NCBI RefSeq assembly: GCF_007833275.1
Contig: NZ_CP042241.1
Coordinates: forward strand, 1-64,000
Direction: 5' to 3'
DNA: 64,000 nt
Source of the DNA: Salarchaeum sp. JOR-1
GTDB taxonomy: Archaea > Halobacteriota > Halobacteria > Halobacteriales > Halobacteriaceae
Below, in pieces: positions 3,832 to 24,901 of the stretch; position 1 is the stretch's first letter, and each line of letters begins with the position of its first letter. Position numbers and translations under genes: made by a program. The notes under the pieces were generated by a model that saw nothing but the letters and a program-made list of their open reading frames with translations, ran no database searches and had not been told where the DNA came from.

Positions 3832-5007
3832 ATGACCGATCGTCCCGACATCGAGGAGGCAGTCAAAGAGCGCCTCTCTGAGGATCCCTCAGAGGAGTTC
3901 ATAGACGAAATAGCCTCCAGAGTCGTGGACGAGATGGACGAATCTTTCTCAGAACTTGGTGTGAAGACTCGAGCGCTGGAAGAGATTGTTGACGACTTTC
4001 GGAACCAGAAGCTCGAAGAAGTGGATTCAGAAGGTCAGTATGAGCGAAAAATCGACTATATCCAGACCTATCTGACCGAGGAAGTTCAAGGCGAAACGTC
4101 TGACGAGTTCACGAGTGAGGACGTTGGCCGGTACAAGAATTGGCGGAAGTATGACTCGCTTGACCGTGAGGAGCCGCTGTCAAACAACACGCTCCAGGAT
4201 GATATGTATCTATTTCGTGAATTCATCTCATACATGGTGGAGCACCGATTGGCACCGTATCGGTTTTTGAGGAGTGTCGAAATCCCCGAATTGGACGACC
4301 CGAAGGAAGGCGTGGATGAGAAGCTGCTGGAGCCTGAGCGAGCCAACGCGATACTAGAATATCTTCGTAAATACCACTATGCGGATGTCGAGCACGCCGC
4401 GATGGAGTTGTTCTGTGAGTCAGGACCGCGGAAAGGAGACGTGTACTCCTGTGACGTCGATAGTTACGACGAAGCTGCCTCGACGATAAGATATCAGAAT
4501 CAAGAAGGGACAAATCTCAAGAATGACGAGGAGAGTTCTCGAGAGATAACTCTCTACGGTATTGTTCCAGAGATCATCAGTGACTACATCGAGAACCGGC
4601 GTCCCGATGAAGTTGATGAGGAAGGGCGCGAACCGCTTCTCACAAAGGGGGATGGCCGAATTGAGAAGTCTACGTTGCAGAAAATCGCATATAAGTGGAC
4701 GCGACCGTGTGCAATCGGCTTAGAATGCCCACACGACAGGGATCCAGAGGACTGCGAAGCGGCACAGAGGAATAATTCGGCGTACAAATGCCCCAGCTCC
4801 CGAGCACCTCATCATATCAGAACCGGGTACATTACTGCCAAGCGGAACGCTGGGGTCTCCCCAGAAGCAATCGAACAGCGCTGTGACGTAACTCCCCAAT
4901 GTCAAGAAGAACACTACGACCTGCCAGATCTAGAGGAGGAAAGGGAACGGTACGAAGACGAGTTCGAAGATACGTCTGTAGATGAAGATTCGGGCTTTAG
5001 CCACTAA
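3832..5007 (+). CDS. Tyrosine recombinase (XerC/D-like integrase) with Cys-rich insert
   Basis: The 391-residue protein has a phage-integrase layout: an N-terminal SAM-like core-binding part (about residues 60-150, helical, DYIQTYLTEEVQ) and a C-terminal catalytic domain with the first Arg in CESGPRKGD (about 202), HHIRTGY giving the H-x-x-R box (about 327) and the nucleophile Tyr in EEHYDLPD (about 363). A segment CAIGLECPHDRDPEDCEA carries Cys/His residues typical of a haloarchaeal integrase subgroup and is shared with the second integrase at 31160-32170. It probably catalysed integration or excision of the left-hand element. It stands alone; no att repeat could be identified next to it. 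Confidence 0.8.
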   Translation: MTDRPDIEEAVKERLSEDPSEEFIDEIASRVVDEMDESFSELGVKTRALEEIVDDFRNQKLEEVDSEGQYERKIDYIQTYLTEEVQGETSDEFTSEDVGRYKNWRKYDSLDREEPLSNNTLQDDMYLFREFISYMVEHRLAPYRFLRSVEIPELDDPKEGVDEKLLEPERANAILEYLRKYHYADVEHAAMELFCESGPRKGDVYSCDVDSYDEAASTIRYQNQEGTNLKNDEESSREITLYGIVPEIISDYIENRRPDEVDEEGREPLLTKGDGRIEKSTLQKIAYKWTRPCAIGLECPHDRDPEDCEAAQRNNSAYKCPSSRAPHHIRTGYITAKRNAGVSPEAIEQRCDVTPQCQEEHYDLPDLEEERERYEDEFEDTSVDEDSGFSH

Positions 5008-5618: not shown

Positions 5619-7967
5619 TTAGGAGGTTGCAGCCGGGATCCGGATCGTGACAATACTACCCCGCGGACTGTTTTCACGAATCGTCACCTCGCCGCCGAAA
5701 CTCACCGCGACCCAGTGGATGAGCCACAGACCAATCCCGGAGCTGTGGGTAAGCGGCGTCTCTTCCCCCATCTCGACCACGGTCTGTTCCTGATCCGGAA
5801 TCCCCGGACCATTATCTGCAATCAGGATATCGACCCACTCGCCGGTTTCAGTCCTCTCCGGCGGAGTGGCTGTGAGAGTGACTTCGGGCGGGGTTTGATC
5901 GGAGTGCGTGACCGCATTATCGACGGCTTCCCGGATCGCTGTCGCCAAGCGATCATCCGCTTGCACCAGCGCGGACTCGGGCGTCGTGATAGTCAGTTCC
6001 GCCTCAGGATACTCGTCGTGGAACTCGTCTCTCAGACCCGTCAGCAGGGCATTGACGTCACAGGTCGCGTCGTCTTCAGTCTCTCGATTGAAGAGGTCAC
6101 GTATCTTTCTAGCGTGTTCGGTGAGTTCAAGCAGCTCGTTGGCGCGATTCCGTATTGCCGCCGCCTGCTCTTGCTGGTCCTTGTCACCAAGCGTCTCTGC
6201 AAGGGTCTCGGCATTGCCGCGAACAACGTTCATGGCGTTTCGGATATTATGCCGGAGAACCCGATTCAATACACTGAGACGCTGCTCACGCAACCGCCGT
6301 TCCGTGATTTCGGATTCAATACCGACAAAGTGGGTGATCTCACCGTCAGTATCTGTGATCGGCGCGATTGTCTGCTCAACCTGATATAGACGCCCGTCCT
6401 TGCGCTGATTAACGAGGGTCGCCTCCCAGACATCGCCTGCCGTGATTGTCTCCCATAATTCCTCGTAGAATGTGTCACTATGCTTCCCTGACTTCAGAAT
6501 CCGCGTATTTTGTCCGACTGCTTCTTCCTTCGAGTAACCTGTCGTCTCTTCAAACGCCTGATTCACGTATTCAATCGTACCCTCTGTATCCGTGATCATC
6601 ACTACGTGCCCGGCTTCGTCAACGGCCCGCTGATACAGTTGTAACTCTTGTTCGTTTTCTTTCCGCTCGGTGATGTCCTGTTGAAACCCGATGAAACGGA
6701 TTACGTCTCCTGTCTCATCTCGAACAGGCGCAATCGTGACATAATTCCAGAATTCCGTCCCGTCTTTGCGATAATTGCGGAGTTTAACCGAGACGGGCTT
6801 CCCAGTGTCAATTGCTTCACGCATCTCTGCAACTGGTTCCGCGGCCGTCTTCTCACCTTGCAAGAACCGGCAGTTCCGCCCGAGAATCTCGTCTTCCGTG
6901 TACCCGGTCAACTCCTGGAAACCGTCGTTTACGTACGTGAGAGGGTTGTCATCTTGCGTGGCGTCGGCGATAGTCACACCAACCGGCGCTTCATCAATCG
7001 CACGATGCAGCAACTCGAGTTCTTCCTGCCGCTCTTGCTGGCTGGAGACATCCTCAACCGCGACAATAGCATGCTCTGCCCCGTCACCACGTTCCCCCGG
7101 TGTGCGTGTGGCAGGCTCGTCATGCTCGTGGTGGTCCTGAAGCGGAGACGCCCAGAACTGCACCGCAACTCGGCTGCCATCATAGCGCTGCCACTCCGCC
7201 TCCTCCCTGGTGACCGTGCGACCACTCTCGACCTGCTGGAGGAGTTCATCGAACGCAGCCTGCTCCTCGTCAGGGATGACAGGGAAGGTGTCTCCGAGAA
7301 CCTCACGTTGCTCGTACCCGAAGATGGATTCGGCGGCCTGGTTCCAGGCTTCCACTTCTCCCTCTTGATCGAGGGTGATAAGTGCGATTGGCACCGTCTC
7401 GACAAGCGTGGTGAGCCGCTCGGTCACCTGTTCGTACTGCGTATGTTCGTGAGCCCGCCGGCTGTCGTATACCCCAGTCACGAATCCTCCGACGCCACCA
7501 GCACCCCCTCCCCACATGACAAGCAACCATGGGTCAGCGAGTGCTACCCCATGCGCAAGTTGATATAGTGCTGCAAGACTAGCGATGAAACCGACAGGGA
7601 GCGCGCCCGCTAGACACCAGGCACCGATTCGAGCTGCCGGTCGGAGAGATGTGGCTTGGTTCGGGCTGGTGGCCTTGTGCCACCACCTGTCTGGCGGATC
7701 CTCTCGGTTAATTTCGGTTTGAACGACATGGGTGGGGGACCGGGCGAGCCAGAGGCCGCCAAGAAGGAGCGGCCCAGCGAGTACACCACCCACAAGTCCG
7801 ACGATCACCTGTGTAAAGAACGATTCTCCAGGTGTGAGGATGTGAAGGGCAGACGCGATACTGATGATCCCCCCAAGGACAACGGGGATTCCGTACCCGA
7901 GAACACGTTGCAGTCGGGGTGTCAGCTCAATGAGTGAGTGGGCTGACGACAGTAATGTGTCACTCAT
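5619..7967 (-). CDS. Membrane sensor histidine kinase with a LOV (blue-light) domain
   Basis: 782 residues. Four predicted membrane segments occupy about residues 22-165 (for example PVVLGGIISIASALHIL and LLVMWGGGAGGVGGFV). Three PAS units follow: PAS1 (about 185-300), a LOV-type PAS (about 325-445) and PAS3 (about 450-570). The LOV unit has the signature GRNCRFLQG with the adduct-forming cysteine at 366, the flavin contacts of LRNYRKDG and FWN, and the GFQQDITE end. A haloarchaeal DHp helix with the phospho-acceptor in VLRHNIRN and an HATPase_c domain (DNAVTH, DNGPGIPD, GIGLWLIHW) complete a kinase. LOV domains bind flavin and respond to blue light; that this one does is inferred from the conserved residues. 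It is the last gene of the leftward signalling block, 80 bp after its neighbour. Confidence 0.85.
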   Translation of the reverse strand: MSDTLLSSAHSLIELTPRLQRVLGYGIPVVLGGIISIASALHILTPGESFFTQVIVGLVGGVLAGPLLLGGLWLARSPTHVVQTEINREDPPDRWWHKATSPNQATSLRPAARIGAWCLAGALPVGFIASLAALYQLAHGVALADPWLLVMWGGGAGGVGGFVTGVYDSRRAHEHTQYEQVTERLTTLVETVPIALITLDQEGEVEAWNQAAESIFGYEQREVLGDTFPVIPDEEQAAFDELLQQVESGRTVTREEAEWQRYDGSRVAVQFWASPLQDHHEHDEPATRTPGERGDGAEHAIVAVEDVSSQQERQEELELLHRAIDEAPVGVTIADATQDDNPLTYVNDGFQELTGYTEDEILGRNCRFLQGEKTAAEPVAEMREAIDTGKPVSVKLRNYRKDGTEFWNYVTIAPVRDETGDVIRFIGFQQDITERKENEQELQLYQRAVDEAGHVVMITDTEGTIEYVNQAFEETTGYSKEEAVGQNTRILKSGKHSDTFYEELWETITAGDVWEATLVNQRKDGRLYQVEQTIAPITDTDGEITHFVGIESEITERRLREQRLSVLNRVLRHNIRNAMNVVRGNAETLAETLGDKDQQEQAAAIRNRANELLELTEHARKIRDLFNRETEDDATCDVNALLTGLRDEFHDEYPEAELTITTPESALVQADDRLATAIREAVDNAVTHSDQTPPEVTLTATPPERTETGEWVDILIADNGPGIPDQEQTVVEMGEETPLTHSSGIGLWLIHWVAVSFGGEVTIRENSPRGSIVTIRIPAATS

Positions 7968-8047: not shown

Positions 8048-9667
8048 TCACTCATCGGTAGATCCCTCGTCGTGCCAGTCGGCAGTAGGAATAGTAAACT
8101 CGAAGCGGGCGCCTCCAGCGTCGCTCTCCGTGATGTCGATTCCCCAGTCGTGTGCCGCAGCGATTTCGCGGACGATCGCCAACCCGAAGCCAGTGCCGTC
8201 ATCGCTCGTCGTATACCCGGTCTCGAACACGGCATCGCGCTCATCGTTCGGGATGCCGGGGCCGTCGTCAGCCACGTAGAAGCCGGGAGCCCGATCCAGC
8301 ACGCCAACCGTTATCTCCACGGACGGGCCAGCGTGCTCGACAGCGTTCCGAAACAGATTCTCGAAGAGATTGCACACCCGCGAGTCATCCATCCTGACGA
8401 CCACGTCGTCCGGGATCTCGCACGTGAGGGGGGCGTCATCTGTCACGACGTGGTCCCACGCGCGGTGTACGACATCGCACACCTGTACCAAATCGGTGTC
8501 AGTTGCCTGCTGTCCGTGCGTGGCAAGATCCATCGCATCGTCAAGGATGGTTTCCATCCGCTCTAACGCCTGGCGTACCTGTGCGAACTGCTCTTCGTCA
8601 CCGGTCTGTTCAGCAAGATCGAGCCGTCCCTGTGCGACGTTCAGCGGACTTTGCAAGTCATGCGCTAATGTCTGCGTGAATTCCTCCATCCGTGCGGTCT
8701 GGCGCTCCAACTCCTCGGTCCGTCGTCGTAACTCCGTGATCTCGTTATTAATGGCGACAAAGTACGCGATGTCGCCGTGCTCGGTCGTGACTGGCGCAAT
8801 CGTCTGCTCGACCACGTAGCGTTCCCCGTTCTTCCGTTCGTTGACGAGCTCGTCTTCCCAGACCTCACCGGCCCGGATCGTGTTCCACAGTTCAGCGTAA
8901 AATGTGTCGTCGTGGACGCCGGATTTGAGCAGTGACGGCTCGCGCCCGATCGCCTCCCCGGCCGTATACCCGGTGATCTCTTCGAACGCCTGATTCACGT
9001 ATAGAATCGTCCCGTCAGGATCCGTGATATAGATCGAGTGACCCGCGTGCTCGACCGCCTGACAAAACGTCCGCAGTGTGAGCGCATACCGATACCGGGT
9101 TACGATTGCGTGAATCCGCTCGGCGAGCAGTTGAAACTGTTCGGTGTCGGTATCTTTCTGGAGGTAATCATCCACACCGTGGCGAAGCGCCTCGCCAGCG
9201 ATGTGTTCGGCACCCTGCCCGGCGAACATCACGACGGGAAGAGTAGGAGCCGTCTCCCGAATCGCGTCCAGTAGGTCGAGCCCGTCCAGTTCGGGCATCT
9301 GGTAGTCAGTCACCACACAATCGATGTCCTCCCCGATGACCGCCGGCGGCTGCTGCCCGCTGACTGTACTCGCCGACGACACGTCGTCTGTTGCCACGGC
9401 GGGCTCGTCGCCGTCACGGATCGTCGTGACCGCATCGTCGGCCGAGGTGGCTGACTCAGGAATGCGTTCGAGAGCTTCCTCACCCGAGGTGGCGATGTCA
9501 GCCGTCATCCCGTACTCATCTTCGAGGAACGACGCCAGCCGGTCAGCAAACGCCGCATCATCATCAACAAGCAGGACGTGAATCGACGCCGGATCCACAG
9601 TCTCATCGAGGCGGTCGTCAAGCGCCATCTCTGCAAGACGCCCGAACAGCTGGTGGGGCTCAGTCAC
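8048..9667 (-). CDS. Hybrid receiver-PAS histidine kinase
   Basis: 539 residues: an N-terminal receiver domain (HVLLVDDDAAF at about 29, phospho-acceptor Asp in VVTDYQMPELDG, Lys in LQKDTD) with a longer than usual Ser/Ala-rich insertion after the second helix; one PAS (about 205-315, YVNQAFEEITGY); a DHp helix with TLAHDLQSPLNV; and HATPase_c (NLFRNAVEHA, DDGPGIPN, GTGFGLAIVREI). The PAS is related to the PAS3 of the LOV kinase but reads GREPSLLKS at the LOV position, so it lacks the flavin cysteine. No membrane segment is seen, so a cytoplasmic protein is expected. The start overlaps the end of the HalX gene by 4 nt (ATGA), which indicates translational coupling. Confidence 0.85.
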   Translation of the reverse strand: MTEPHQLFGRLAEMALDDRLDETVDPASIHVLLVDDDAAFADRLASFLEDEYGMTADIATSGEEALERIPESATSADDAVTTIRDGDEPAVATDDVSSASTVSGQQPPAVIGEDIDCVVTDYQMPELDGLDLLDAIRETAPTLPVVMFAGQGAEHIAGEALRHGVDDYLQKDTDTEQFQLLAERIHAIVTRYRYALTLRTFCQAVEHAGHSIYITDPDGTILYVNQAFEEITGYTAGEAIGREPSLLKSGVHDDTFYAELWNTIRAGEVWEDELVNERKNGERYVVEQTIAPVTTEHGDIAYFVAINNEITELRRRTEELERQTARMEEFTQTLAHDLQSPLNVAQGRLDLAEQTGDEEQFAQVRQALERMETILDDAMDLATHGQQATDTDLVQVCDVVHRAWDHVVTDDAPLTCEIPDDVVVRMDDSRVCNLFENLFRNAVEHAGPSVEITVGVLDRAPGFYVADDGPGIPNDERDAVFETGYTTSDDGTGFGLAIVREIAAAHDWGIDITESDAGGARFEFTIPTADWHDEGSTDE

Positions 9668-10311
9668 GACTGGTCACGCTCGCTCGTCTCGGACTCTTCA
9701 GGTGTCTCGTTAACCTCGCTGTCAAGGTCGCGGAACGCCGCTTTGAAATCCTCGTCTGTGAACTCCTCGACAGTATCGTCAACGGCGTCTTCTAACTCGG
9801 CGATTTGTTCTTCCAGTTCGACAACCTCATCGCTTTGCCGGAGTTCAGCGTCGGAGAGATTGGCTTCCAACGCGGCACGCGTCGCCACAAGTTGCTGGTA
9901 TTCTTGTAGCGTTTCGTCGTATTCGGAGCGGGTCAGCATCCGTTCGACCGCGTCGTGCAACTCGGCTTCGTCTACGGGCTTGGTGAGATAGTCGTCAAAC
10001 CCCATCCCGATCACGTCGAAGCCGGGATCGACCGCCGAGACGATCACCACCCGACAGTCCAGCTCTTGGTCGCGGATCTCCGCTAATACGTCGTCACCAG
10101 AGAGATCCGGCATTCGCCGATCCAGGAGCACGACAGCAACTTCCTCATCTAGTTTCTCTAAGGCGTCTTCACCGCCATACGCGGTGCGGACATCGTAGGT
10201 GTCAGCGAGCCACGCCGCGTACAGGTCAGCGAGATCTGTTTCGTCCTCAACGACGAGGACGGTTGGGGCGTCTGATGCATCGTCATGGTCGGTTGGGGCG
10301 GTGTCAGTCAT
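9664..10311 (-). CDS. HalX-type response regulator
   Basis: 215 residues: receiver domain (TVLVVEDETDLADLY, phospho-acceptor in VVLLDRRMPDLSGDD, Lys in DYLTKPVDEAE) followed by a HalX domain (about 125-195), a coiled-coil acidic region found only in haloarchaea and of unproven output function. No DNA-binding HTH is visible. The acidic tail after HalX extends about 25 residues further than in the paralogue at 45301-45864. It overlaps the kinase genes on both sides by 4 nt, so it is presumably the direct partner of one or both of them. Confidence 0.88.
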   Translation of the reverse strand: MTDTAPTDHDDASDAPTVLVVEDETDLADLYAAWLADTYDVRTAYGGEDALEKLDEEVAVVLLDRRMPDLSGDDVLAEIRDQELDCRVVIVSAVDPGFDVIGMGFDDYLTKPVDEAELHDAVERMLTRSEYDETLQEYQQLVATRAALEANLSDAELRQSDEVVELEEQIAELEDAVDDTVEEFTDEDFKAAFRDLDSEVNETPEESETSERDQS

Positions 10312-11795
10312 TGGTCTACATCCTCTGTGTGCTCGGTATCGGCGGCCGATTGTGACGGATCGGTCTCGTCGTCGGTCGTGGCGTCGCGGGGGAACGTCCG
10401 TACAGACGCGCGGGGTAGCGTCACCGTCACGCGTGTCCCCCGGGGTGAGCGATCCTCAATCGTCACCTCACCGCCAGCGTAGGTAACCGTCCAGTGGACG
10501 ACCCACAACCCGATCCCACTGCCGTGCGTCAGCGCGGTTTCTTCGCCCGCGTCGAGGACTTCCTGTTCACTATCCGGAAGTCCCGGGCCGTTGTCTACAA
10601 TCACGACTTGAATCATTGGCGACGAGTCGCCCTCGTCGGTGCGTGTCACGCGGATGGTGACTTCCGGTGTCGCCTGATCGTTGTGTTCGATGGCGTTCTC
10701 AACAAGCTCTTCGAACACTAATTCGACATTTGCTCGGACATCAATCTCGTAGTCAGGCAGATCAGTCGTGAGATTCGCCTGCGGATATTGCTCTGCGATC
10801 CCGGTTACAACGCGGTCGCAGGTCGTACACACGGATTGTGACTGGCGATAGGTGCCGCGATCGAACTCCTGTATCGCGCGATATGCCTTCTGACTTAGCT
10901 CAACGAGCCCTTCGACACGCTCGCGGAGGTCATGGACGTAGTCTGTCTGTGCCTCGGTGTCATCTGTCTTCGTGATCTGATGGGCATAGCCGTCGATCAG
11001 ATTCAGATCAGTCCGCAAATTGTGACGCACGACTCGACTCAACACTTGCGTCTGTTGTTGGCTGATCACTTCGCCAGTCCGATCGTTCATAATAGCAACA
11101 AACTTGACGACGTTGCCGTCGCCATCGGTAATGGGTGCAATCGTTTGATCAGCAACGAATAGCTCCCCGGTCGCCCGTTGATTCATGAACTCGTTGTCTT
11201 CCCAGACCTCGCCGGAGCGAATCGTCTCCCACAGCTCCTCGTAGTAGGTCTCGGACTGACGACCTGAATTCAAGATCCGCGGTGTCTCACCGAGGGCTTG
11301 ATCTTCGCTGTACCCGGTGATCTCTTCGAACGCAGGGTTCACGTATTCGATCGTTCCGTCGGTGTCCGTGATGTAGATCGCGTGCCCAGCGTGTTCGATT
11401 GCCTGTTCGAACTGCTGGGCTTCCTGTATCGTCGTCATCAACTGGTCGTGCATCTCGTGCAGCGAGTGAGAGAGGGCCCCGAGTTCGTCGTCAGTATCGA
11501 ACACGGTGATTGACTGATCGAACTCCCCCCGAGCGATGGCGCCTGTATCGGCTGTTAATTGCTGTATCGGGGCGACGATATGCCGATCCAGGAGCACGAA
11601 CAACGCTCCGATGACAAGAAGATCGACGATAAACATGCTGAGCAAGAACAACGGAGAAAGAGTGGAAGAGACAGCAGTCTGTTGCACGAACCACCATGTC
11701 CCTCCAAGATTCGCCGCGAACAAGCACACGATGAGGAAGAGGTGGCCTCCAAGCCGCCACCGAATACTCCAGTCTCGGAGTGATGATTTCGACAT
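10308..11795 (-). CDS. HAMP-PAS sensor histidine kinase
   Basis: About 495 residues from ATG 11795 (MSKSSLRDW); an upstream in-frame ATG at 11882 would add a non-conserved leader and is less likely. Two membrane helices (LGGHLFLIVCLFAANLGG and LSMFIVDLLVIGALFVLL) lie close together, leaving only a short external loop, then a HAMP linker (IVAPIQQLTADTGAIARGEF), a PAS domain (IEHAGHAIYITDTDG, GETPRILNSG, no LOV cysteine), a DHp helix with VVRHNLRTDLN and HATPase_c (ENAIEH, DNGPGLPD, GIGLWVVHW). The small loop argues for sensing within the membrane or cytoplasm. It overlaps the HalX regulator by 4 nt and is about 105 bp downstream of the receiver gene. Confidence 0.85.
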   Translation of the reverse strand: MSKSSLRDWSIRWRLGGHLFLIVCLFAANLGGTWWFVQQTAVSSTLSPLFLLSMFIVDLLVIGALFVLLDRHIVAPIQQLTADTGAIARGEFDQSITVFDTDDELGALSHSLHEMHDQLMTTIQEAQQFEQAIEHAGHAIYITDTDGTIEYVNPAFEEITGYSEDQALGETPRILNSGRQSETYYEELWETIRSGEVWEDNEFMNQRATGELFVADQTIAPITDGDGNVVKFVAIMNDRTGEVISQQQTQVLSRVVRHNLRTDLNLIDGYAHQITKTDDTEAQTDYVHDLRERVEGLVELSQKAYRAIQEFDRGTYRQSQSVCTTCDRVVTGIAEQYPQANLTTDLPDYEIDVRANVELVFEELVENAIEHNDQATPEVTIRVTRTDEGDSSPMIQVVIVDNGPGLPDSEQEVLDAGEETALTHGSGIGLWVVHWTVTYAGGEVTIEDRSPRGTRVTVTLPRASVRTFPRDATTDDETDPSQSAADTEHTEDVDQ

Positions 11796-11900
11796 GGTAT
11801 TACTCAACTGATGTAGACCGACCCCGATCGAACCGCTCCAAGTGCTGGTGCGACTGACATTCACCCGAGCACCAATCGACAAGTGAATTGCAGGGCATCG

Positions 11901-12281
11901 TTACCCACTGAGTGCTGTCTCAATCAGGTCGCGGAACTGCTGTTTGGGAATTGGTTTATCAACGAACTCGTGGGCGCCATAGTCACGACTCTCGCGCCGG
12001 AGCGTGGGGTTCTGAAAGCCCGAGAGAATGATGAACGGTACATCGTTCTCAGCGAGTTGTTCGCAGTACGGCCAGACCGGATCGTCGAACCGGTCAATAT
12101 CAATCGTGGCGACCGCAAACCGTGAGGCCTCTGCAACAACGTCCTCCGCCGTGTCACGATCTGTGACGACCACGGGGTCATAGCCCTCATCGGCGAGGAA
12201 GTCACTGAGCAGCTCCGCATTGCGCTCGTTGGCGTCCATGATCAGGATCTGCGGCTGGTCATTAGATGCCGGCGTCATCAT
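11901..12281 (-). CDS. Stand-alone receiver-domain protein
   Basis: 126 residues forming a single receiver domain: ILIMDANERNAELLSDFL at the first strand, the phospho-acceptor region ATIDIDRFDD, ILSGF for the Thr/Ser switch and VDKPIPK for the conserved Lys. The acidic pair at the first strand is reduced to MDAN and the residue pattern after the phospho-Asp is not the usual MP, so the family is divergent. There is no output domain. It overlaps the KaiC-like gene by about 20 nt and precedes the kinases, the usual layout of a phosphorelay intermediate or of a KaiC-associated receiver. Confidence 0.75.
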   Translation of the reverse strand: MMTPASNDQPQILIMDANERNAELLSDFLADEGYDPVVVTDRDTAEDVVAEASRFAVATIDIDRFDDPVWPYCEQLAENDVPFIILSGFQNPTLRRESRDYGAHEFVDKPIPKQQFRDLIETALSG

Positions 12282-13759
12282 GTGGTGTGGTCTCCGTGGA
12301 GGCCTCCCACTCGGGCGTGCCAGTGAGAATCCCTCGCAGATTGGGCAGTGGCTCGCCGACTGAGAGGGCGTGCTCGGTGATTTCGAGTTCGCGGAGCGTA
12401 TGTTCGAACCCGCTGGTGCGCTGTTTGAGCACGCCGATCACTTTCCGGAGTTCGCCCTGGTACTCGATGTGCCGGAGGAAGACAATATTATCCGCGAGTT
12501 GACTTATTCCCCTCTCGGTTGCCTGGAAATCCCCCGTGATCGCGTGTACCTCGTTCACGAAGATGGCGGTCACACCCGCGTTCCGCAGGTATCGCCCCAG
12601 CGTGACGAGCACATCTTTTGTCTCGGCACCGCGCACACTCTGCTGAAACCCATCGATAGCATCCAGCATGATAACTTCGACACCATTGGTCTCGACGGCA
12701 CGGCGGACTTCCTGTGTGAATTCGTCCACCGTCATCTCATCAGGTTCGATGGTTTCGATCGTGAGCGTGCCGTCGTCACGCATCTCGCGGATGGGGATGT
12801 TGACGGCGTCGGCCCGCTGAAGCAGGGTCCGTTCGTTTTCTTCGAACGAGTAAAGGACAGCCTGGCTGTTCCGTCCGGTGGCTTCTTTCAGGAACTGGAG
12901 CCCGGTCGTGGTCTTGCCAGCGCCAGTTGGGCCCGTAAGCATGGTGAGTGTGCCGCGATCGAGACCGCCGTTCAGTAACGCGTCAAGTTCGGGCACCCCC
13001 GAGGAAAGCGTTCCCTGTGGATCGGTACTGTGTTGCGTCTCCGAGCTGAGTTGCGGTGACGCCACCATTCCGTCGTCGGTGATCTGGAGGGAGTGCTCCC
13101 CGCGTTGAAAGTCCGACCCCCGGAATTTGGACACACGAAGCGTCCGATATTCGTTGGTTTGATCGAGATGAATGACGGCGTCGCTCATGAACTGGAGGTC
13201 GTCGTCAGGTGTGGCTTGGGTCGCCTGAGAGGTGAATACGACACTCGTCCCTTCGAGCAATCGAAACAGGCCCATCACGTGCTGGCGGAATTGATAGGGA
13301 TCCTCGGTCAGATACCGGAGTTGCGTCATCGGATCAATGAAGACGCGATCCGGCTTGACATCGTTGAGTGCTGTTGTAATCTCGTCGGCAAGGGCGGGCC
13401 CTTCGACCTCCTGGGTTGGAAATACGTCGTACGACTCTTCCTGGGTGAACGCCGCCTCGTCAGGCCGCAAATCAAGCAACTCGAAGGCGTCCGGGTCGAA
13501 TCCAAAGGCAGTGGCGTCTTCTCGGAGGTATTGTTCGGGTTCCCCCATGTTGATGAATAACCCTGTTTCGTCATCGGTACCAGCGGTGAGGTAATGCAGC
13601 CCGAATAGCGTCTTTCCCGCACCGGGTGGGCCCCGGACGAGAGTACTCCGGTCTGGGATGAGTCCGCCATTGAGAATGTCATCAATCCCGGGGACGCCCT
13701 GTCGAAATGCGGTCTGTTGTCGATTCCTCGGTAACCGTCGCTCCTGTCGAATCAGTCAT
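12262..13759 (-). CDS. Two-domain KaiC/GvpD-family ATPase, reading frame broken near the 5' end
   Basis: COG0467-type RecA-fold ATPase with two domains. Domain 1 has Walker A GPPGAGKT and DRVFIDPMTQ as Walker B; domain 2 has GPTGAGKT, the catalytic pair in YSFEENERTL and VIMLDAIDGF. Domain 1 is only in frame if reading starts upstream of the first ATG at 13548. The natural start is ATG 13759, which overlaps the upstream regulator as ATGA and gives MTDSTGATVTEESTTDRIST before running into a stop; one extra G near 13697 (GGGCGT instead of GGCGT) separates it from VPGIDDILNGGL. No ATG, GTG or TTG start exists in the main frame before 13548. So the gene is frameshifted, or the base is an assembly error. 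GvpD belongs to the same superfamily. Confidence 0.8.
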
Positions 13760-14172
13760 ATTTGATCTTGGTCCGTATCGATTGGTGGAAGCGCATCATC
13801 ATCGGCTTCGTCCAAGTGCTTTAGAAGAAAGTATTGAAATCGTGTAATTCCATTCAGTAAATCACGGGTTCGTGTGTGCAGGTGTGCTGGATCGTCAATC
13901 TGGTATTCTTTGGAGCGAACTTTATCGACAGTGACTAAGATGCCCTCATCTGCAAGATCACGGAGGTGGGGGTAGACAGTTCCGGGACTCAAGTCACAAT
14001 TGTGGGCTCGAAGATCGTTCAGGAGTTCCTTCCCAGACGCTCCATCGTGAGCCGCAATTAAGACGAGCAGGACCTCGTCCAAACGCGCTTTCACGAACTC
14101 TTCAGGGAGATTGATTTCTTGGGACGGTGTGTCAGTCTCAGAATTCCACGGTAGAGAGTTAGATTCAGTCAT
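13756..14172 (-). CDS. GvpE-like winged-helix (PadR-type) regulator
   Basis: 138 residues. The central part (ARLDEVLLVLIAAHDGASGK then DLSPGTVYPHLRDLADEGIL) closely follows GvpE of this same window (DAILLLLIAVRDGACGKDLL, DLSPGTVYPHLSDLADDGIL), the gas vesicle activator, which has a PadR-like winged helix and leucine-rich dimer helix. This protein is shorter at the N-terminus than GvpE (193 residues). It is the first gene of the leftward signalling block and overlaps the KaiC-like ATPase by 4 nt. Because GvpE works with the KaiC-superfamily protein GvpD, this pair looks like a second D/E module. Its DNA target is unknown. Confidence 0.75.
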   Translation of the reverse strand: MTESNSLPWNSETDTPSQEINLPEEFVKARLDEVLLVLIAAHDGASGKELLNDLRAHNCDLSPGTVYPHLRDLADEGILVTVDKVRSKEYQIDDPAHLHTRTRDLLNGITRFQYFLLKHLDEADDDALPPIDTDQDQI

Positions 14173-14564
14173 GACCTTATTGCGTAGTTAAACCTCTCTT
14201 CGCTTGCTTGTAGCTTGTCTGAGTGGCAGTTTGGACCCTGAGATTCCCAATGTTAGTGACCTGAGGTTCATATCCACTTGTTCCACTCATCGATGATAAA
14301 ATCGTACCCTAAATAGAAAAGGGTAGAAATAAATGAGCCTTATGTGAATAGGGTATTATGAGAAGACGAGCAAGCGGCTTATGCACCCACTCAGTTTCGA
14401 CACTGATCCCGACTTACTGATACACCCAGTAGTATCCACAGATGCTTTCATCACAGAACAGGGTCCCATCATCAAAGACCACGATGTCTCAATTCGCCGG
14501 AGTAAACACCCCGACTGAGGACGATATTTCCACGCCAAACCAAACTGGTGAGCATTAAAGGAAT
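14173..14564. other. Divergent promoter region of the signalling block and Bat-like gene
   Basis: About 390 bp without a gene, AT-rich, between the leftward GvpE-like gene and the rightward Bat-like gene. It must hold both promoters. AT-rich stretches near 14305-14360 are candidates for TATA elements, but no TGAAACGG box like those before gvpA was found here. Confidence 0.4.
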
Positions 14565-17500
14565 ATGATACAGAAAAGTGATGATTTTCGTGTATTGACT
14601 GTCACCAACGATACAGAGGTCGGTAGACAACTGGCAACAACCTTGGCGGATACAGATGATCGGCTCATCGTTGACGCGTATTCAGAGGAAGTTTATACCA
14701 ACGGTAGCCTTACTGAGGAGTTCATTTCACAGTTTCTGATTGCCGATTGTATCGTGAGTACCGATCACGTTCTCAAGCAATGTCCCATAGACTTCGTGGA
14801 GGCGGTCCGTGCGGAATCGCCCGCCCTCCCATTCGTTCTTTTGACCGAGAGTACCAGCGCTTCTGAACCAGCCGTTCCTGGCGATTGTCTTGCCGCTGCA
14901 ATCGGTCAAGAGATCACCGACTGGTTCCCCATAGAATTTGTCTACGAACGTCCGGAGAGCGTTGCTACGCGTATTATTGATACTATTGGCGGGCTGTCGT
15001 CGCACGTTCAGCCGCGTGAGCCAGCAGCCCAGAGAACCTTGGAAGTATGTCCTGACGCTGTGACTGTGGCTGTAGATGGAGACTTCGTGTATGTGAATGA
15101 AGCAGCCGTTGAGTTATTGGGTGCATCAACTCGTGGTGAACTTTTGGATCGACCAGTAAGTGACGTTTTGCACCCGGAGAATCAAGAAGAAATTCTGGAG
15201 AATATGGAGTCAATCACAGGGCGTGAACGGGTCGTTTCAGATCGTCCTCGAAAACTCTTAACGCTTGATGGCAGGGTCATTCACGTCGAAGTAACGGCAC
15301 GCAACGTCGAATGGGAAGACCAGCAGGCTGTCGTTGCCATTCTGCATGATGTGACTGAGCGTGTCAGGCAACAGCGAGAGCTGGAGCGACAGAACGAACA
15401 ATTCGAACAGATCGCTGCCCGGCTTGAGCAAACGGTCATCTGGATGGCGACCCCCGATCTCCAGCAGACGGTGTACGTGAGTCCGGGATACGAATCGATC
15501 TGGGGGCGCTCTACTGATTCCCTATACGAGGATTTTGAGTCCTTCCTTAACGGCGTACACCCCGATGATCAGGAACGGATAGAAGAACAGCTAGCACAGC
15601 TGCGGGCGGATGCTGCACATGGTGACGCCCAACCGGAGTATAAGCAGGAATTCAGGGTATGCCATCCTGATGGGACTGTCCGATGGGTTGAAAACACCAC
15701 ATTCCCGCTACGCAACGGCGATGAGGTAATACAGTGGATTGGGATCACTACTGATATCACGACACGGAAAGAGCGCGAGCAAGATCTCCGACAGTACCAA
15801 ACAGTCATTAAGGCGCTTGACAATCCCGTGTGGGCGACCGATGAAGAGGGAAACGTGACGTTCGTGAACCAGCAGTTTTGTGAGTCAGCGGGGCAGCCGC
15901 GTGAAGCGCTTCTTGGACGACCAATCCACGCAGTATTCCGTACCGAGAAGAATGTGGCTGAGGAAGCGGCGACATCACTCAGGGATGCTGTTGAGGCGAT
16001 TCTTCGCAGCGAGAAAGACAACGCTCACCGTGAGCTAGAAATCACTCACTCTGACTCCTCCATGGTTCGAAACGTACAGGTCGTTCCGCTGGTTGAAGAA
16101 GGCGACATCACAGGTGCGATCGGGATTGATTACGATATTACTGAGCAGAAGCGACAGGAGGAGAAACGCAAGCAAACGATTGATCGGGTCACGGATGCCA
16201 TCGTCAGAGTTGATGACGAGTGGCAGTTCACTTTTGTTGACGAGCAAGCTGAAGATTACTATGAGATGACTGAAGAGGAACTTCTCGGACGGGATTTTTG
16301 GGAGGTATTTGAAGGAGTTCGGAATACTCGGTTTGAAGACGCGTATCGACACGTCATGGGAACGCGGGAGCCGATGTCGGTTGAGGAATATTCGTCCGAT
16401 TTAGATGACTGGTTCCACGTTGAAGTGTACCCCGACGATCGCGGCGGATTATCGTTCTATTTCCGTGAAATTACTGAACGTAAAGAACGCGAGGAAGAAC
16501 TCCAGATGAAAACACGCGCGATGGAGGAAGCTCCGATCGGGATTCTCATCACCGATCCTTCTCAGGATGATAACCCAATTATTTACGCTAATACAGGGTT
16601 TGAACGCTTAACTGGTTATACGAAAGAAGAAATCTTGGGCCGGAACTGTCGGTTTCTCCAGGGCGAGGAGACAGACCCGGAACCGGTCGCAGCGATGCGC
16701 AAAGCGATTGACAATCAAGAATCGGTGTCAGTTGAACTCCGCAATTACCGGAAAGATGGCACTCGGTTCTGGAATCACATGACAATCGCCCCCATAACGA
16801 ACGATGCAGGCGATGTGACGCACTATGTCGGGTTTCAGGAGGACGTGACAGAGCGCAAGGAGTACGAACAGACCCTACCAGCCCTACATGAAGCGACGAA
16901 CGACTTCATCCAAGCATCATCGCAAACTGAGGCTGCCGAGCAGATAGCCGATACTGTAGAAATGGCCACCGGGTTATCGGCCGTTGCCGTCTACCACTAC
17001 GACGACAAGGACGGAGTTCTTCGGCCGGCTGCCAGTTCTACTACTCTTCAGGAACTCGTCGGCAATCTACCCGTCTTTGGTCCGGGTGAGGGGATCGCGT
17101 GGCGTGCCTTCACAACTGGGGAGTCGGTTGCGTACGATGATATTCGGACTGTTGATGACGTGTATAATCCCGAAACGCCGATCCGAAGTGAGCTTATTGT
17201 GCCGGTCGGTGACCACGGCGTCATTTTAGCTGGGAGTCCGGAGCTGGGAGCAGTTACCGAATATGACCGCAAACTCGTAGAACTACTGGCCCTCTCCGCG
17301 GAAGCTGCGATCAATACGATTGAGCAACAAACCCAGTTACGGGCTCGACAACAGGAGCTGGATCAGCGGAATCAACAACTTATGCGTATTAATAAACTAA
17401 ATGATATAATTCGAAATATTAATCAGATTCTCATCAAATCAGACACGCCCGATACCATCACCCAGGGCGTTTGTGATCAACTGGTTGAAATTGATCAAAT

Positions 17501-18608
17501 AGAATTTGCATGGATTGCCAAACCAGAACTAGATAGTCAAGCGGTACAGCCGACAGCGTGGAGTGGATCCGACCGTTCGTACCTAGATCAGCTTGGTGAG
17601 TCAATCGGCGACGAAGTAGCCCCAGATGAACCGACTGTCCAAGCGGCCCGGACCCAGGAGTCCGTTTCTGTTCCCAACATCGCACGGCAACCCTCTAGTG
17701 ACTGGCAAACGTCGGCGCTTCAACAGGGCTATAGCTCCGTTTTGAGTGTTCCGCTCATCTATGAGGAGTCCTTCTATGGGGCGTTGAGTGTGTACGCGTC
17801 TGATCAGCAATTCTTTGAGGAGGAATACCAAGACGTGATGACTGAATTGGGTAAAATGACAGGATTAGGCATAAATACGATAAACCAACGTGACGCACTG
17901 CTGGGGAAACAATACACGACTATCACGCTCCAGATAGACGGTGTTGCATCTTCCAAGCAGCCCTTCCTCAACTTATCCAATCAACTCGGATGTGAGGTAG
18001 AACTCAGCACGATCCTCTCAAGTAAGCGAGGCCACATTGTGTACGCACAAATCCAGGATGTCACGGCTACAGATGTGATCGAATTCGCTGAGAAAACTTC
18101 GGAGATCAACCACGCACGTCAGGTTCAAGGGACGAATCACTGCGAGACAGAGCCTTGCCTGTTTGAATTTCTCGTGAGAGAAACGTGTTTGGCGATTCAG
18201 ATTGCTGACCAAGGAGGGGTGCCAAAGACAATAACCTTTAACAATAACCGCGGACGGGTTATTGCAGATCTGCCCCCAACAGTAGAACCAGCAACCCTCA
18301 TAGAATCGCTGCAATCTCAGCAATCCTCTATCCAACTTGTCTCAACAAGCACTCAACAAAATCCAATTGAGTCATCTGATATCTTCAATCAGGACTCAAG
18401 TGAATCACCTAATATCTACATATTGCAGAATGATCTCACCTCCGCTCAACGAGAAGCGGTTGAAGCCGCATATGCGGGTGGATTTTTCGAGTGGCCGCGT
18501 GACAGCACCGGGGAAGAAATCGCGGATGTCTTAGGAATCTCCCAGCCAGCCTTCTCGGAACGGTTACGAGCAGCTCAGCGAAAAATCATCGCCGCGTACT
18601 GTCGTTAA
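14565..18608 (+). CDS. Bat-like multi-PAS/GAF transcription activator with LOV domain and HTH_10
   Basis: 1347 residues, much larger than Bat (about 670). Order seen: a degenerate receiver-like N-terminus (1-130), four PAS units (about 155-640), a fifth PAS of LOV type (about 645-765) with GRNCRFLQG, adduct cysteine 695, LRNYRKDG, FWNHMTIAP and GFQEDVTE, then two GAF domains (about 770-930 and 945-1110), a Bat-type output region and a C-terminal HTH_10 (SAQREAVEAAYAGGFF, ADVLGISQPAFSERL). Bat in Halobacterium activates bacterio-opsin genes in response to oxygen and light; here the target is unknown. There is no kinase domain, so it should act directly on DNA. It points toward, and lies next to, the end of gvpM, and is divergent from the signalling block. 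Blue-light sensing is inferred from the LOV residues. Confidence 0.85.
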   Translation: MIQKSDDFRVLTVTNDTEVGRQLATTLADTDDRLIVDAYSEEVYTNGSLTEEFISQFLIADCIVSTDHVLKQCPIDFVEAVRAESPALPFVLLTESTSASEPAVPGDCLAAAIGQEITDWFPIEFVYERPESVATRIIDTIGGLSSHVQPREPAAQRTLEVCPDAVTVAVDGDFVYVNEAAVELLGASTRGELLDRPVSDVLHPENQEEILENMESITGRERVVSDRPRKLLTLDGRVIHVEVTARNVEWEDQQAVVAILHDVTERVRQQRELERQNEQFEQIAARLEQTVIWMATPDLQQTVYVSPGYESIWGRSTDSLYEDFESFLNGVHPDDQERIEEQLAQLRADAAHGDAQPEYKQEFRVCHPDGTVRWVENTTFPLRNGDEVIQWIGITTDITTRKEREQDLRQYQTVIKALDNPVWATDEEGNVTFVNQQFCESAGQPREALLGRPIHAVFRTEKNVAEEAATSLRDAVEAILRSEKDNAHRELEITHSDSSMVRNVQVVPLVEEGDITGAIGIDYDITEQKRQEEKRKQTIDRVTDAIVRVDDEWQFTFVDEQAEDYYEMTEEELLGRDFWEVFEGVRNTRFEDAYRHVMGTREPMSVEEYSSDLDDWFHVEVYPDDRGGLSFYFREITERKEREEELQMKTRAMEEAPIGILITDPSQDDNPIIYANTGFERLTGYTKEEILGRNCRFLQGEETDPEPVAAMRKAIDNQESVSVELRNYRKDGTRFWNHMTIAPITNDAGDVTHYVGFQEDVTERKEYEQTLPALHEATNDFIQASSQTEAAEQIADTVEMATGLSAVAVYHYDDKDGVLRPAASSTTLQELVGNLPVFGPGEGIAWRAFTTGESVAYDDIRTVDDVYNPETPIRSELIVPVGDHGVILAGSPELGAVTEYDRKLVELLALSAEAAINTIEQQTQLRARQQELDQRNQQLMRINKLNDIIRNINQILIKSDTPDTITQGVCDQLVEIDQIEFAWIAKPELDSQAVQPTAWSGSDRSYLDQLGESIGDEVAPDEPTVQAARTQESVSVPNIARQPSSDWQTSALQQGYSSVLSVPLIYEESFYGALSVYASDQQFFEEEYQDVMTELGKMTGLGINTINQRDALLGKQYTTITLQIDGVASSKQPFLNLSNQLGCEVELSTILSSKRGHIVYAQIQDVTATDVIEFAEKTSEINHARQVQGTNHCETEPCLFEFLVRETCLAIQIADQGGVPKTITFNNNRGRVIADLPPTVEPATLIESLQSQQSSIQLVSTSTQQNPIESSDIFNQDSSESPNIYILQNDLTSAQREAVEAAYAGGFFEWPRDSTGEEIADVLGISQPAFSERLRAAQRKIIAAYCR

Positions 18609-21904: not shown

Positions 21905-22546
21905 TTATCGCCCTCCTTGTTGTTCGGCCCCGATATGGATATCCACAAAGTTGTATGGGGGCCATGGGCCCGTGTACTTGATGGTCAACTCGTCGTCGTA
22001 CTCTGCTTCAATCTCGTCAATCGCGGCATCGAAGGCGTCACGTTGGTCGCGGTCCACGAGGTACGACTTGTTGACGATCAAGCGGTCCGTGAAGAGATCG
22101 TTCTCTGTCTCGTTGATGCTCAACTCTGTCAGTCGATCTGTGACGGTTGCTTGGATGTCTTCCTGAGGGATCGTATCGTCAGCAGGCGCGAGTATCTTCA
22201 CCCCGAGTTCAACGGTTCCCTCAATATCGTTGAGCGTACTGCGCAACGCGCGTCGTGCGCCCCGTAGGACGCCTTTGATCGTGCGCTCGTTTTTGAACGC
22301 CATCCCGAAACTCATCGGCACGACCGTGCGTCCACCATCGTACTCCAACACGTGTTGGAGGACAGTATTATGCGCCTCCACGTCCTCGTCGGTGCGGTCG
22401 GGTTCAGTCGTGTCGATGTCGGACACGACCGCGGAGAAGTTCTTGTAATCGACCGTGTAAATCTGGTCTGCGCCAGCGACGCCTTCGACATCTAATTCGA
22501 GGTCTTCCTGTTCAATGATGCCGTACGTGTATAGGTTCTCACTCAT
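21905..22546 (-). CDS. gvpF: Gas vesicle protein GvpF
   Basis: 213 residues from ATG 22546 (MSENLYTYGIIEQEDLELDV), the conserved family start; the ATG three codons upstream is not conserved. The GvpL/F fold is shown by LYTYGIIEQ, RTVVPMSFGMAFK, RGARRALRSTLNDIEGTVEL and the C-terminal YTGPWPPYNFVDIHIGAE. GvpF is known to bind GvpA and to help start vesicle assembly. It overlaps gvpE by 8 nt. Confidence 0.94.
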   Translation of the reverse strand: MSENLYTYGIIEQEDLELDVEGVAGADQIYTVDYKNFSAVVSDIDTTEPDRTDEDVEAHNTVLQHVLEYDGGRTVVPMSFGMAFKNERTIKGVLRGARRALRSTLNDIEGTVELGVKILAPADDTIPQEDIQATVTDRLTELSINETENDLFTDRLIVNKSYLVDRDQRDAFDAAIDEIEAEYDDELTIKYTGPWPPYNFVDIHIGAEQQGGR

Positions 22547-23120
22547 CGATCTCACTCCGGTGGGATTGGGATTGTGACTGATTGGCGTTGCAATCGGTCA
22601 GGACTTCCTTGAGAACGACCGAAAACAGCAGCAACTGCTCGGCCGCATGGTCTACTCGGGTTAATGCTACGTCAGGATCGGAAAGGCGATACACTTTGCG
22701 CTTGCTCAATTTTTGCATTTCAAGAATACCGTCGTCCGCAAGGTCACTTAAATGCGGATATACTGTACCCGGACTCAGGTCTGTCCCAAACAATCGCCGA
22801 ATATCTTGTAACAGGTCTTTGCCGCAGGCTCCATCGCGCACAGCGATTAAGAGGAGGAGAATCGCGTCGATGTGTTCGGTAACGATTTCATCACTGATCG
22901 TGTGCAGCTGGTCATTGTCAACCCACCCGTCTATCGGAGCGACCGCGTCATCAGTCAGCGGCGTATCCGTGTACCGTTGCGCCGCTCCTTCATCATGCGG
23001 CTGGTCTTCGTGAGCTGACGTACCGTCGGAGTCGATCATCGATTCGAGATCGGATACTGTGAGCGAGAGTGCGGTGTCGGCGTCGATGTCCGCGGTGAGT
23101 TCCTCCAGCAGGTCGTCCAT
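22539..23120 (-). CDS. gvpE: Gas vesicle gene activator GvpE
   Basis: 193 residues, against about 190 in Halobacterium. The central winged-helix part (HIDAILLLLIAVRDGACGKD, DLSPGTVYPHLSDLADDGIL) is PadR-like, and a C-terminal leucine-rich helix (HAAEQLLLFSVVLKEVL) suits dimer formation. GvpE activates gvpA, gvpD and gvpF promoters by binding an upstream sequence of two TGAAAC-type boxes; such boxes lie before gvpA here. GvpD antagonises it. The gene follows gvpD after 2 nt. A paralogue is found at 13756-14172. Confidence 0.93.
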   Translation of the reverse strand: MDDLLEELTADIDADTALSLTVSDLESMIDSDGTSAHEDQPHDEGAAQRYTDTPLTDDAVAPIDGWVDNDQLHTISDEIVTEHIDAILLLLIAVRDGACGKDLLQDIRRLFGTDLSPGTVYPHLSDLADDGILEMQKLSKRKVYRLSDPDVALTRVDHAAEQLLLFSVVLKEVLTDCNANQSQSQSHRSEIDE

Positions 23121-23122
23121 TG

Positions 23123-24733
23123 TTAGACCATCTCCGTGAGCGTGATCTTGGGGATCGACTCTGACTGGCTGATGCCGATACCGAGCAGAGGCGTCAACGG
23201 GTTTTCGCCATACAGGATGATGGCGTCACTGGACCGTTCCAGCCGGAAGTGCATATCGGCAACCCGATCCGCTCGCGTGCGGAGTTCAGTACCTGGCTTG
23301 GTGATGAGGAGTGCCAGATCGTTGTGGAGAGCGACATAATTCGCAAAGTCACCCAGCCGGGTTTCGAACGCCTCCTGCGCCGTGTCCATGCTGATCACGT
23401 GTAATAACGGGTTTTCACTTTCTTCTCGCACCTGTTCAACGTAGGCCATGTATGGCTCGTACGCGAGTTGCCCGCCTTCTATGGGTGACTCAAGATCCTC
23501 ATCGGTCGGGTTCGACTGGCCACCTCCTGTACCTGCATCCATCGAACGTGGCTCATCGGCCTGCTCATCTGTCTTATCTGCCGGCGTCGCTTCATCGGCG
23601 GGTGTGGTTGCCGTTGTCATCTCAGAATCGGACGTATCGGTGTCCAGTTGGTCGTACCGATCTGCATCGTCAGAGGGACCGGCGTATGTTTCGAAAATAT
23701 GGCAGTAGGTATTGAAGACCTGGGGAGAGAGCACCGTATTGAGATCGTTGTGGAGTAAGCCGGGGCTGCCCTCCCGAGGCGGGACAACCGCAACGCCCAT
23801 CTCCTGAGCAAGGAAGTTACGAATCGCCGGGAGCGTCAACACGCTCCACGCGTCACGAGAGAGATCAGGCCCAAGGTCGAGATGAACGACGCTGCCGCGG
23901 TTATAGCCTCCCGAGAGGATACGGTCAAGATCACGGATGCCAGTCGAGAATTTCGCCTTCGAATTTGCCAGGGGATCCCACGTGCCATTCCCGGTTCCTG
24001 TTCGGAGGGTTGGTAATTCGACTGGCGTGATCGCTTGGAACTTGCCGTCGGCAAGTGTAAACGGCTGTAAGCGGTTGCTGATTCGAACACCCCGAAGCTT
24101 TTCCAAGCGAAGATGCCGACGCGTTCGGCCGCGGTCGTCCTCTTCAACATCAAGGGTGACGACACCATCGACGATGTATCCAAGCGATGAGGACTCCGCT
24201 GTTTCTGACACCAACATCAAACGAATGTTCTCTTCGCGGGCAAGAACGACCAGTTGATTCGTCACTGTCTCGATGTCGGGGGGGTCGTCGTGGCGCGTCG
24301 CCAAGTACTCGTAGATGAGTTCCCAGCTATCGAATGCGATTGTGAGTTGCGTGGTCGCGGCGTTGATCTCTTGGATCCATTCGAGTAACGAATCCAGATC
24401 GAGTTTCTCGAATGGCACGTCTACGTCCAGTGGGAGTTCGAATGGGTCTTGGGAGAGGTCAAGAATCGCGGTTGTGTCAAGTGAGGAGTGATCGTCGAAG
24501 TACATCTCGTGAACCGTCTCCTGATCAACGCGTGTGGACACGTAGAGGACATCCCCATCCCGGTTCAACACATCGAGACCGCGGATCGTAAACAAGGTTT
24601 TGCCCGTGCCTGGTGCACCGTTGACGAGGAGCGTTTGCCCGGTGTCACCCGTGAAAAACTGGCTAATCTCACGTGGGAACAGCGCGAGCCCGGTGTGGTC
24701 TGTGGGCGGTTGAGCTGGGCTGGATGAACTCAT
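23123..24733 (-). CDS. gvpD: Gas vesicle gene repressor GvpD
   Basis: 536 residues when started at ATG 24733 ([11 protein letters not shown]), preceded by a GGAGG ribosome-binding site and equal to the known GvpD length; the ATG at 24769 would add 12 unconserved residues. It is a RecA-superfamily ATPase (KaiC/GvpD/RAD55): Walker [12 protein letters not shown] at about residue 38, and a degenerate second half ([17 protein letters not shown]). An acidic, Thr-rich linker occupies about 345-410. GvpD reduces GvpE activity and amount; its P-loop and arginine-rich patches are needed in Halobacterium and Haloferax. Here [19 protein letters not shown] is a candidate basic patch. Confidence 0.93.
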
Positions 24734-24854: not shown

Positions 24855-24901
24855 TGAAACGGTTGATGAAACGGCTGATGAAACGGCTACTGAAACTATA
24901 C
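24855..24901 (+). promoter_or_regulatory. GvpE-type upstream activating array and core promoter of gvpA
   Basis: TGAAACGG occurs at 24855, 24867 and 24879, and TGAAACTA at 24891, each exactly 12 bp apart. The known GvpE site is two such 8-bp boxes separated by 4 bp, so this array offers three overlapping two-box sites, with the last box running into the BRE/TATA region (TGAAACTATACA). The start of transcription expected about 27 bp later leaves a leader of some 30 nt before the gvpA ATG at 24957. Confidence 0.75.

Follow-up and report, generated by a model that had tools for sequence, protein, structure and literature searches.

The window (the whole stretch of 64,000 nucleotides analysed here, from Salarchaeum sp. 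JOR-1) contains a gene for a small regulator whose end overlaps the gene of a KaiC-like ATPase. In the preliminary description, these two were taken for a second pair of the GvpD/GvpE type, paralogous to that of the gvp cluster in the same window and linked to a phosphorelay. The question raised by the locus is whether both genes, one of them or neither can be traced to gvpD and gvpE. The regulator and the ATPase are designated PadR2 and KaiC2 here, and they are found in the following setting.

8048..9667, minus strand: hybrid kinase, REC-PAS-HisKA-HATPase (Pfam)
9664..10311, minus strand: REC-HalX response regulator (PF00072, PF08663)
10308..11882, minus strand: membrane histidine kinase, HAMP-PAS-HisKA-HATPase (Pfam); its true start is probably an internal ATG
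11901..12281, minus strand: stand-alone receiver-domain response regulator, overlapping the end of KaiC2 (PF00072, E 1.5e-8)
12262..13755, minus strand: KaiC2, open frame of a two-domain KaiC-like ATPase (PF06745 twice; Walker A GPPGAGKT and GPTGAGKT)
13756..13759, minus strand: ATGA overlap of the PadR2 stop and the presumed KaiC2 ATG, typical of translational coupling
13756..14172, minus strand: PadR2, PadR-type winged-helix regulator of 138 aa (ORF list, Pfam, BLASTP, fold)
14565..18608, plus strand: divergent Bat-type regulator with PAS, GAF, BAT and HTH_10 domains (domain search)

Besides the ATGA at 13756-13759, overlaps of 20 bp (12262-12281), 4 bp (10308-10311) and 4 bp (9664-9667) join neighbouring genes. 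From this overlapping or nearly abutting order on one strand, the six genes from PadR2 to the hybrid kinase are presumed to be transcribed as a single operon. The phosphorelay link was thus well founded, in that PadR2 heads a presumed operon with two-component genes. The five genes other than KaiC2 are open, and PadR2 is intact. The operon and the gvp cluster both lie on a low-GC island that occupies positions 1-32000 of the window (45-59%, versus 65-71% past 32 kb) and carries a phage-type integrase (31160-32170, minus strand) and an integrase-like ORF (3832-5007, plus strand) without a Pfam match.

The family of PadR2 was examined together with that of GvpE and GvpD, which are encoded in the window as follows.

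22539..23120, minus strand: gvpE (Pfam; predicted PadR winged helix with a long C-terminal helix)
23123..24733, minus strand: gvpD (GvpD_P-loop and GvpD_bR2)

In the Pfam HMM search against PF03551, PadR2 scored 24.9 bits (E 2e-5), slightly below the curated cutoff of 27, and the GvpE of the window scored 32.3 bits, above it. AlphaFold models of both proteins were made with input alignments from the window and locus proteins, and they share one architecture, in which helices are combined with a wing of two strands and a helix at the C-terminus. The PadR2 model is a winged helix with a core pLDDT of about 90-96, composed of helices 31-42, 47-56 and 63-75, a wing of strands 79-83 and 88-92, and a helix at 95-126, so that both the winged helix and the C-terminal dimerisation helix of the PadR family are predicted to be present. 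When the models were compared with the PDB by Foldseek, Rv3488, LmrR and PadR came out on top for PadR2, and structures of PadR, LmrR, Rv3488 and hsRosR were matched by GvpE; the haloarchaeal hsRosR stood further down in both lists. PadR2 is accordingly modelled as a PadR-type winged-helix protein, with predicted DNA binding. GvpE has been described as a bZIP protein (cited in PMC9501494 and PMC4390858), and a heading in a 2024 paper reads 'PadR transcriptional regulator-GvpE' (PMC11218638). From the PadR HMM match, the predicted model and the Foldseek matches, GvpE is more aptly regarded as a winged-helix protein whose C-terminal helix is long than as a bZIP. Its basic stretch KLSKRKVYR would form the wing in the predicted model. 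With GvpE viewed as a PadR winged helix, its DNA contacts become directly testable.

PadR2 and the GvpE of the window were 49% identical over 83 aa (BLASTP, E 7e-23), and their Smith-Waterman score was 193, as compared with a mean of 35.3 (sd 6.5) and a maximum of 62 for shuffled sequences, which places the likeness far above chance. The blocks common to the two proteins are LLVLIAAHDGASGK in PadR2 and LLLLIAVRDGACGK in GvpE. The shared blocks pointed out in the preliminary description are thus real, and they coincide exactly with the part of PadR2 that is most GvpE-like. In the recognition-helix stretch, 18 of 20 residues are identical (DLSPGTVYPHLRDLADEGIL in PadR2, DLSPGTVYPHLSDLADDGIL in GvpE), and this stretch of PadR2 reaches at most 16/20 with other GvpE proteins and at most 14/20 with solitary PadR proteins. 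Third codon positions of the PadR2 gene and gvpE in the conserved stretch agree at only 25%, and PadR2 is therefore not a recent copy of gvpE. Recent gene conversion between the two genes, considered as a source of the 18/20 stretch, was rejected for the same low third-position identity.

Matches to PadR2 were obtained in 104 of the 293 genomes of the order that were sampled. The 100 loci scanned fell into two kinds: true gvpE genes next to gvpD, and PadR genes of the solitary type, which were more numerous. In the unrooted tree, the GvpE clade was supported at 99/97 with PadR2 outside it, on a long branch that lies between this clade and that of the solitary proteins (61/90). A tree rooted with RosR and two other PadR outgroups, one of which has a very long branch, left alternative sisters of PadR2 at AU p values of 0.37-0.42. 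These results indicate that PadR2 and GvpE belong to one haloarchaeal PadR subfamily, together with the common solitary regulator, and that PadR2 is a distant cousin of GvpE by sequence; the kinship with GvpE that had been proposed holds at the level of the subfamily, and membership in the GvpE clade does not. One GvpE-clade regulator gene (L079:5132-5620, plus strand) has no gvpD within 6 kb, adjoins DnaK-like and DnaJ-like genes, and lies beside a gene for a GvpA/J/M-like protein at about 5943-6659; L079 is possibly a reduced gas-vesicle-like locus.

The likeness in the recognition helix leaves room for the explanation that PadR2 alone goes back to an old copy of gvpE, or retains an ancestral recognition helix of the GvpE type, and has been taken over by a KaiC cassette, in which case it may still read GvpE-type operators. 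This is consistent with the gradient of 18/20, 16/20 and 14/20 given above and with the intermediate branch in the unrooted tree. However, outside the recognition stretch PadR2 is nearer to the solitary family, with up to 41% identity to solitary PadR proteins and at most 33% to GvpE, its wing VRSKEY is of the solitary-family type VR[ST]KEY and not the KRKVY of GvpE, and the rooted tree leaves the alternatives just described. We consider such a descent unlikely, and the control region of PadR2 adds a further point against it. The boxes concerned are the following.

24855..24896, plus strand: four TGAAAC boxes, 12 nt apart, upstream of gvpA (motif search)

The array was sought in the PadR2 control region (14173-14564) and was absent there, being found at gvpA only, and only a few short repeats occur in the control region, none of them a convincing operator. 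The UAS of Halobacterium consists of two 8-nt elements with 4 nt between them, and the gvp UAS pattern is TGAAACN6-10TGAACC; this pattern had no match in the window. The four boxes at gvpA keep an exact 12-nt phase, unlike the Halobacterium UAS. Because the recognition helices are nearly identical, a direct role of PadR2 at gvp promoters is conceivable. It would mean that the KaiC/two-component module reads the gvp control boxes through PadR2, or blocks them with it, and thereby wires an environmental phosphorelay into flotation without GvpD, which we regard as a doubtful proposition. Heterodimers of PadR2 with GvpE, the other action put forward in the preliminary description, are a hypothesis.

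The identity of the ATPase was decisive for the notion of a paralogous pair. KaiC2 matched PF06745 with two domains (E 7e-74, 248 bits). As in haloarchaeal two-domain KaiC proteins, it has two KaiC domains with a Walker A in each and a kinase encoded downstream. Its closest relatives in the 293 genomes were 52-57% identical, and of 40 of the best relatives nearly all have histidine kinases downstream of the KaiC gene, several with REC-HalX upstream. The score against the cyanobacterial clock KaiC model (TIGR02655) was 178.6 bits, under the cutoff of 546. Against the GvpD_P-loop model (PF07088), KaiC2 gave 23.8 bits on one short stretch and missed the cutoff of 24, and PF20440 (GvpD_bR2) was looked for in KaiC2 by Pfam HMM and was not found; the GvpD of the window scored 342 and 435 bits with the two models, respectively. 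KaiC2 and GvpD share about 25% identity over 261 residues. The assignment to the KaiC/GvpD superfamily and the P-loop GPPGAGKTLF reported before are correct as to the superfamily and the motif, but this P-loop end gives no tie to GvpD, being ordinary for KaiC (GK[TS]IF stands there in 28 of 39 relatives). In a domain tree from a quick search, both KaiC2 domains fell among cassette KaiC proteins, away from GvpD, which formed a single clade with full support, set off by a branch of about 6.8 changes per column; the attachment point of such a long branch is unreliable, and the separateness of GvpD is reliable. KaiC2 is thus an ordinary ATPase of a haloarchaeal KaiC-histidine-kinase cassette and no paralogue of GvpD. 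A grouping of the ATPase with ordinary KaiC-like proteins was one of the outcomes that the preliminary description itself had named as refuting its reading. The same genome contains a KaiC paralogue 52% identical to KaiC2 (L215, C2:995133-996551), in a cassette of a Bat-like gene, REC-HalX, KaiC and kinases (C2:990000-1001500). In the plasmid records H1, H3, H7 and H11, ATPases matching KaiC2 are annotated as gvpD and look like cassette KaiC proteins; public 'gvpD' labels on such ATPases are a likely source of confusion.

Since KaiC2 is an ordinary cassette KaiC, the reading of PadR2 and KaiC2 as a duplicated gvpD-gvpE pair re-wired to a phosphorelay is left without support. It would account for the GvpE-like recognition helix in PadR2, for the KaiC-superfamily neighbour and for the gvpDE genes lying 8-10 kb away on the same low-GC island. 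But the regulator precedes the ATPase here, whereas gvpD precedes gvpE in the gvp cluster, the closest relatives of KaiC2 are cassette members far from GvpD, and KaiC2 has a complete second KaiC domain in place of PF20440. In addition, the 25% third-position identity makes any duplication an old one, yet the pair was kept in no other genome sampled. This origin is very improbable, and with it the paralogous DE pair of the preliminary description is set aside.

To what extent the PadR-KaiC adjacency occurs elsewhere was examined from both sides. A PadR gene upstream of the ATPase was found in 0 of the 40 close KaiC2 relatives, and a KaiC-type ATPase directly after the PadR gene in none of about 100 loci of PadR relatives, true gvpE beside gvpD excepted. 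Two loci came closest to an exception: at L134 a KaiC gene lies some 4 kb from the PadR gene, and at L233 the other strand carries a weak KaiC match. An alignment-based scan of GTDB genomes yielded 51 further PadR loci, none with a PadR-KaiC pair, and a protein scan of genome contigs with the PadR2 sequence alone yielded no relative. IMG/VR scans with the regulator family and the ATPase gave no relative, and phage records gave no match. In plasmid records, the ATPase alone or GvpE/PadR alone was matched, and the pair was not found. Within the sampled genomes, plasmids, phages and IMG/VR, the combination of PadR2 and KaiC2 was therefore seen in one genome only, and the pairing does not appear to be a shared old trait.

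The start of KaiC2 required a closer inspection, because the description of the ATPase as an overlapping neighbour had missed a break in its frame.

13696..13699, minus strand: one-base frame break between RISTG, in the frame of the ATG at 13759, and VPGIDDILNGG, in the P-loop frame (frames; intact relatives)

The P-loop frame (12262-13755) has no ATG, GTG or TTG ahead of the first Walker A, and the first start listed, ATG 13548, lies downstream of it. The ATG at 13759 that overlaps the PadR2 stop opens another frame, which reads MTDSTGATVTEESTTDRISTGRPRD and soon ends in two stops. No intact KaiC2 frame starts at an ATG ahead of the first KaiC domain, and from these two observations we conclude that the gene is interrupted. 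RISTG ends at 13697 and VPGIDDILNGG starts at 13695, so that the latter and the first Walker A are one base out of register. Intact KaiC2 relatives have an ordinary ATG start followed by a beginning of the type M...RISTGVPGxDxILxGG, and RISTG and VPGIDDILNGG accordingly belong together, with the one-base break between them. Since about 480 codons of KaiC2 after the break are open, a mutation at this place would have to be recent; a base-calling or sequencing error is the other possible cause. With a genuine break, the KaiC arm would be out of action, leaving PadR2 to act by itself.

Two further explanations follow from this break. According to one, KaiC2 is a pseudogene and PadR2 the leftover of a decaying mobile KaiC/two-component module. 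This agrees with the break before the Walker A and the lack of a start codon there in the P-loop frame, with the intactness of the relatives, several of which are on plasmids, and with the location of the region on a low-GC island with an integrase; on the other hand, PadR2 is intact, and open frames are kept in the remaining 480 KaiC2 codons and in the other five genes of the operon, which indicates a recent lesion or a base-calling error. We hold decay to be possible, if the less expected outcome; it would fit the ancestry that we prefer for the locus, though not the mechanism. In the other explanation, the break is bridged by +1 slippage from ATG 13759, or by read-through of the PadR2 stop, to yield an ATPase or a PadR-KaiC fusion. 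The P-loop frame is indeed open from directly after the PadR2 TGA, which lies in that frame. However, no relative is so arranged, those examined starting at an ordinary ATG, and an in-frame TGA follows by itself from one inserted base downstream of the ATGA overlap, so that bridging is highly unlikely.

The explanation that we prefer, and consider probable, is that a GvpE-related PadR regulator leads a six-gene KaiC/two-component operon in which KaiC2 is of the cassette type and of separate ancestry, the two having been joined in this lineage, with PadR2 under inferred KaiC control. The kinases and receivers would determine the state of the KaiC ring, in terms of phosphorylation or ATP, and this in turn would let the ring govern how active or stable PadR2 is at the promoters that it targets. 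GvpD, which reduces the level of GvpE (PMC4390858), limits its partner in much the same manner. With KaiC2 interrupted just before the first Walker A, this control arm may be dead, unless the break is a sequencing error. As the adjacency is a singleton, only the gene overlap points to a functional coupling of PadR2 and KaiC2. KaiC-like ATPases have been discussed as signalling hubs (Makarova, Galperin and Koonin 2017, as cited in PMC5847659). If the operon works in this way, the PadR protein joins a short list of haloarchaeal winged-helix regulators tied to KaiC proteins (GvpE/GvpD, CsmR/CirA), and control of a winged-helix regulator by a KaiC protein would then seem to be a recurrent arrangement, with GvpDE as one instance of it.

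A comparison with known systems places the two proteins as follows. Like PadR2, GvpE is a PadR-type winged helix with the invariant SPGTVYP and a C-terminal helix; PadR2 lacks its N-terminal extension of about 55 residues, has a shorter C-terminal helix, and is encoded outside any gvp operon and not beside GvpD. The solitary haloarchaeal PadR proteins (about 165 aa; Natrialba, Halopiger; L221, L222, L224, L225) are up to 45% identical to PadR2 in the aligned core and 50-55% in the best local segments, but they are isolated genes, with neither gvpD nor a KaiC gene beside them, and their recognition helix is mostly P[RAS]LHxLEx. The hsRosR and LmrR/Rv3488 proteins match the PadR2 and GvpE models in fold, whereas sequence identity is low and their ligands and regulons are other. 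GvpD shares with KaiC2 the KaiC-superfamily P-loop domain and GxPGxGKTLF, and differs from it by its own Pfam domains (PF07088 and PF20440), the lack of a complete second KaiC domain and a separate clade. The KaiC-histidine-kinase cassettes of haloarchaea have, like this locus, a two-domain KaiC followed by kinases, several with REC-HalX; upstream they have no close co-directed gene, or REC-HalX, while KaiC2 is led by a PadR gene and its frame is broken. In Haloferax volcanii, as proposed here for PadR2, a KaiC-like protein, CirA, has been proposed to tune a winged-helix regulator, CsmR, which resembles Lrp/AsnC regulators and not PadR (PMC13286277).
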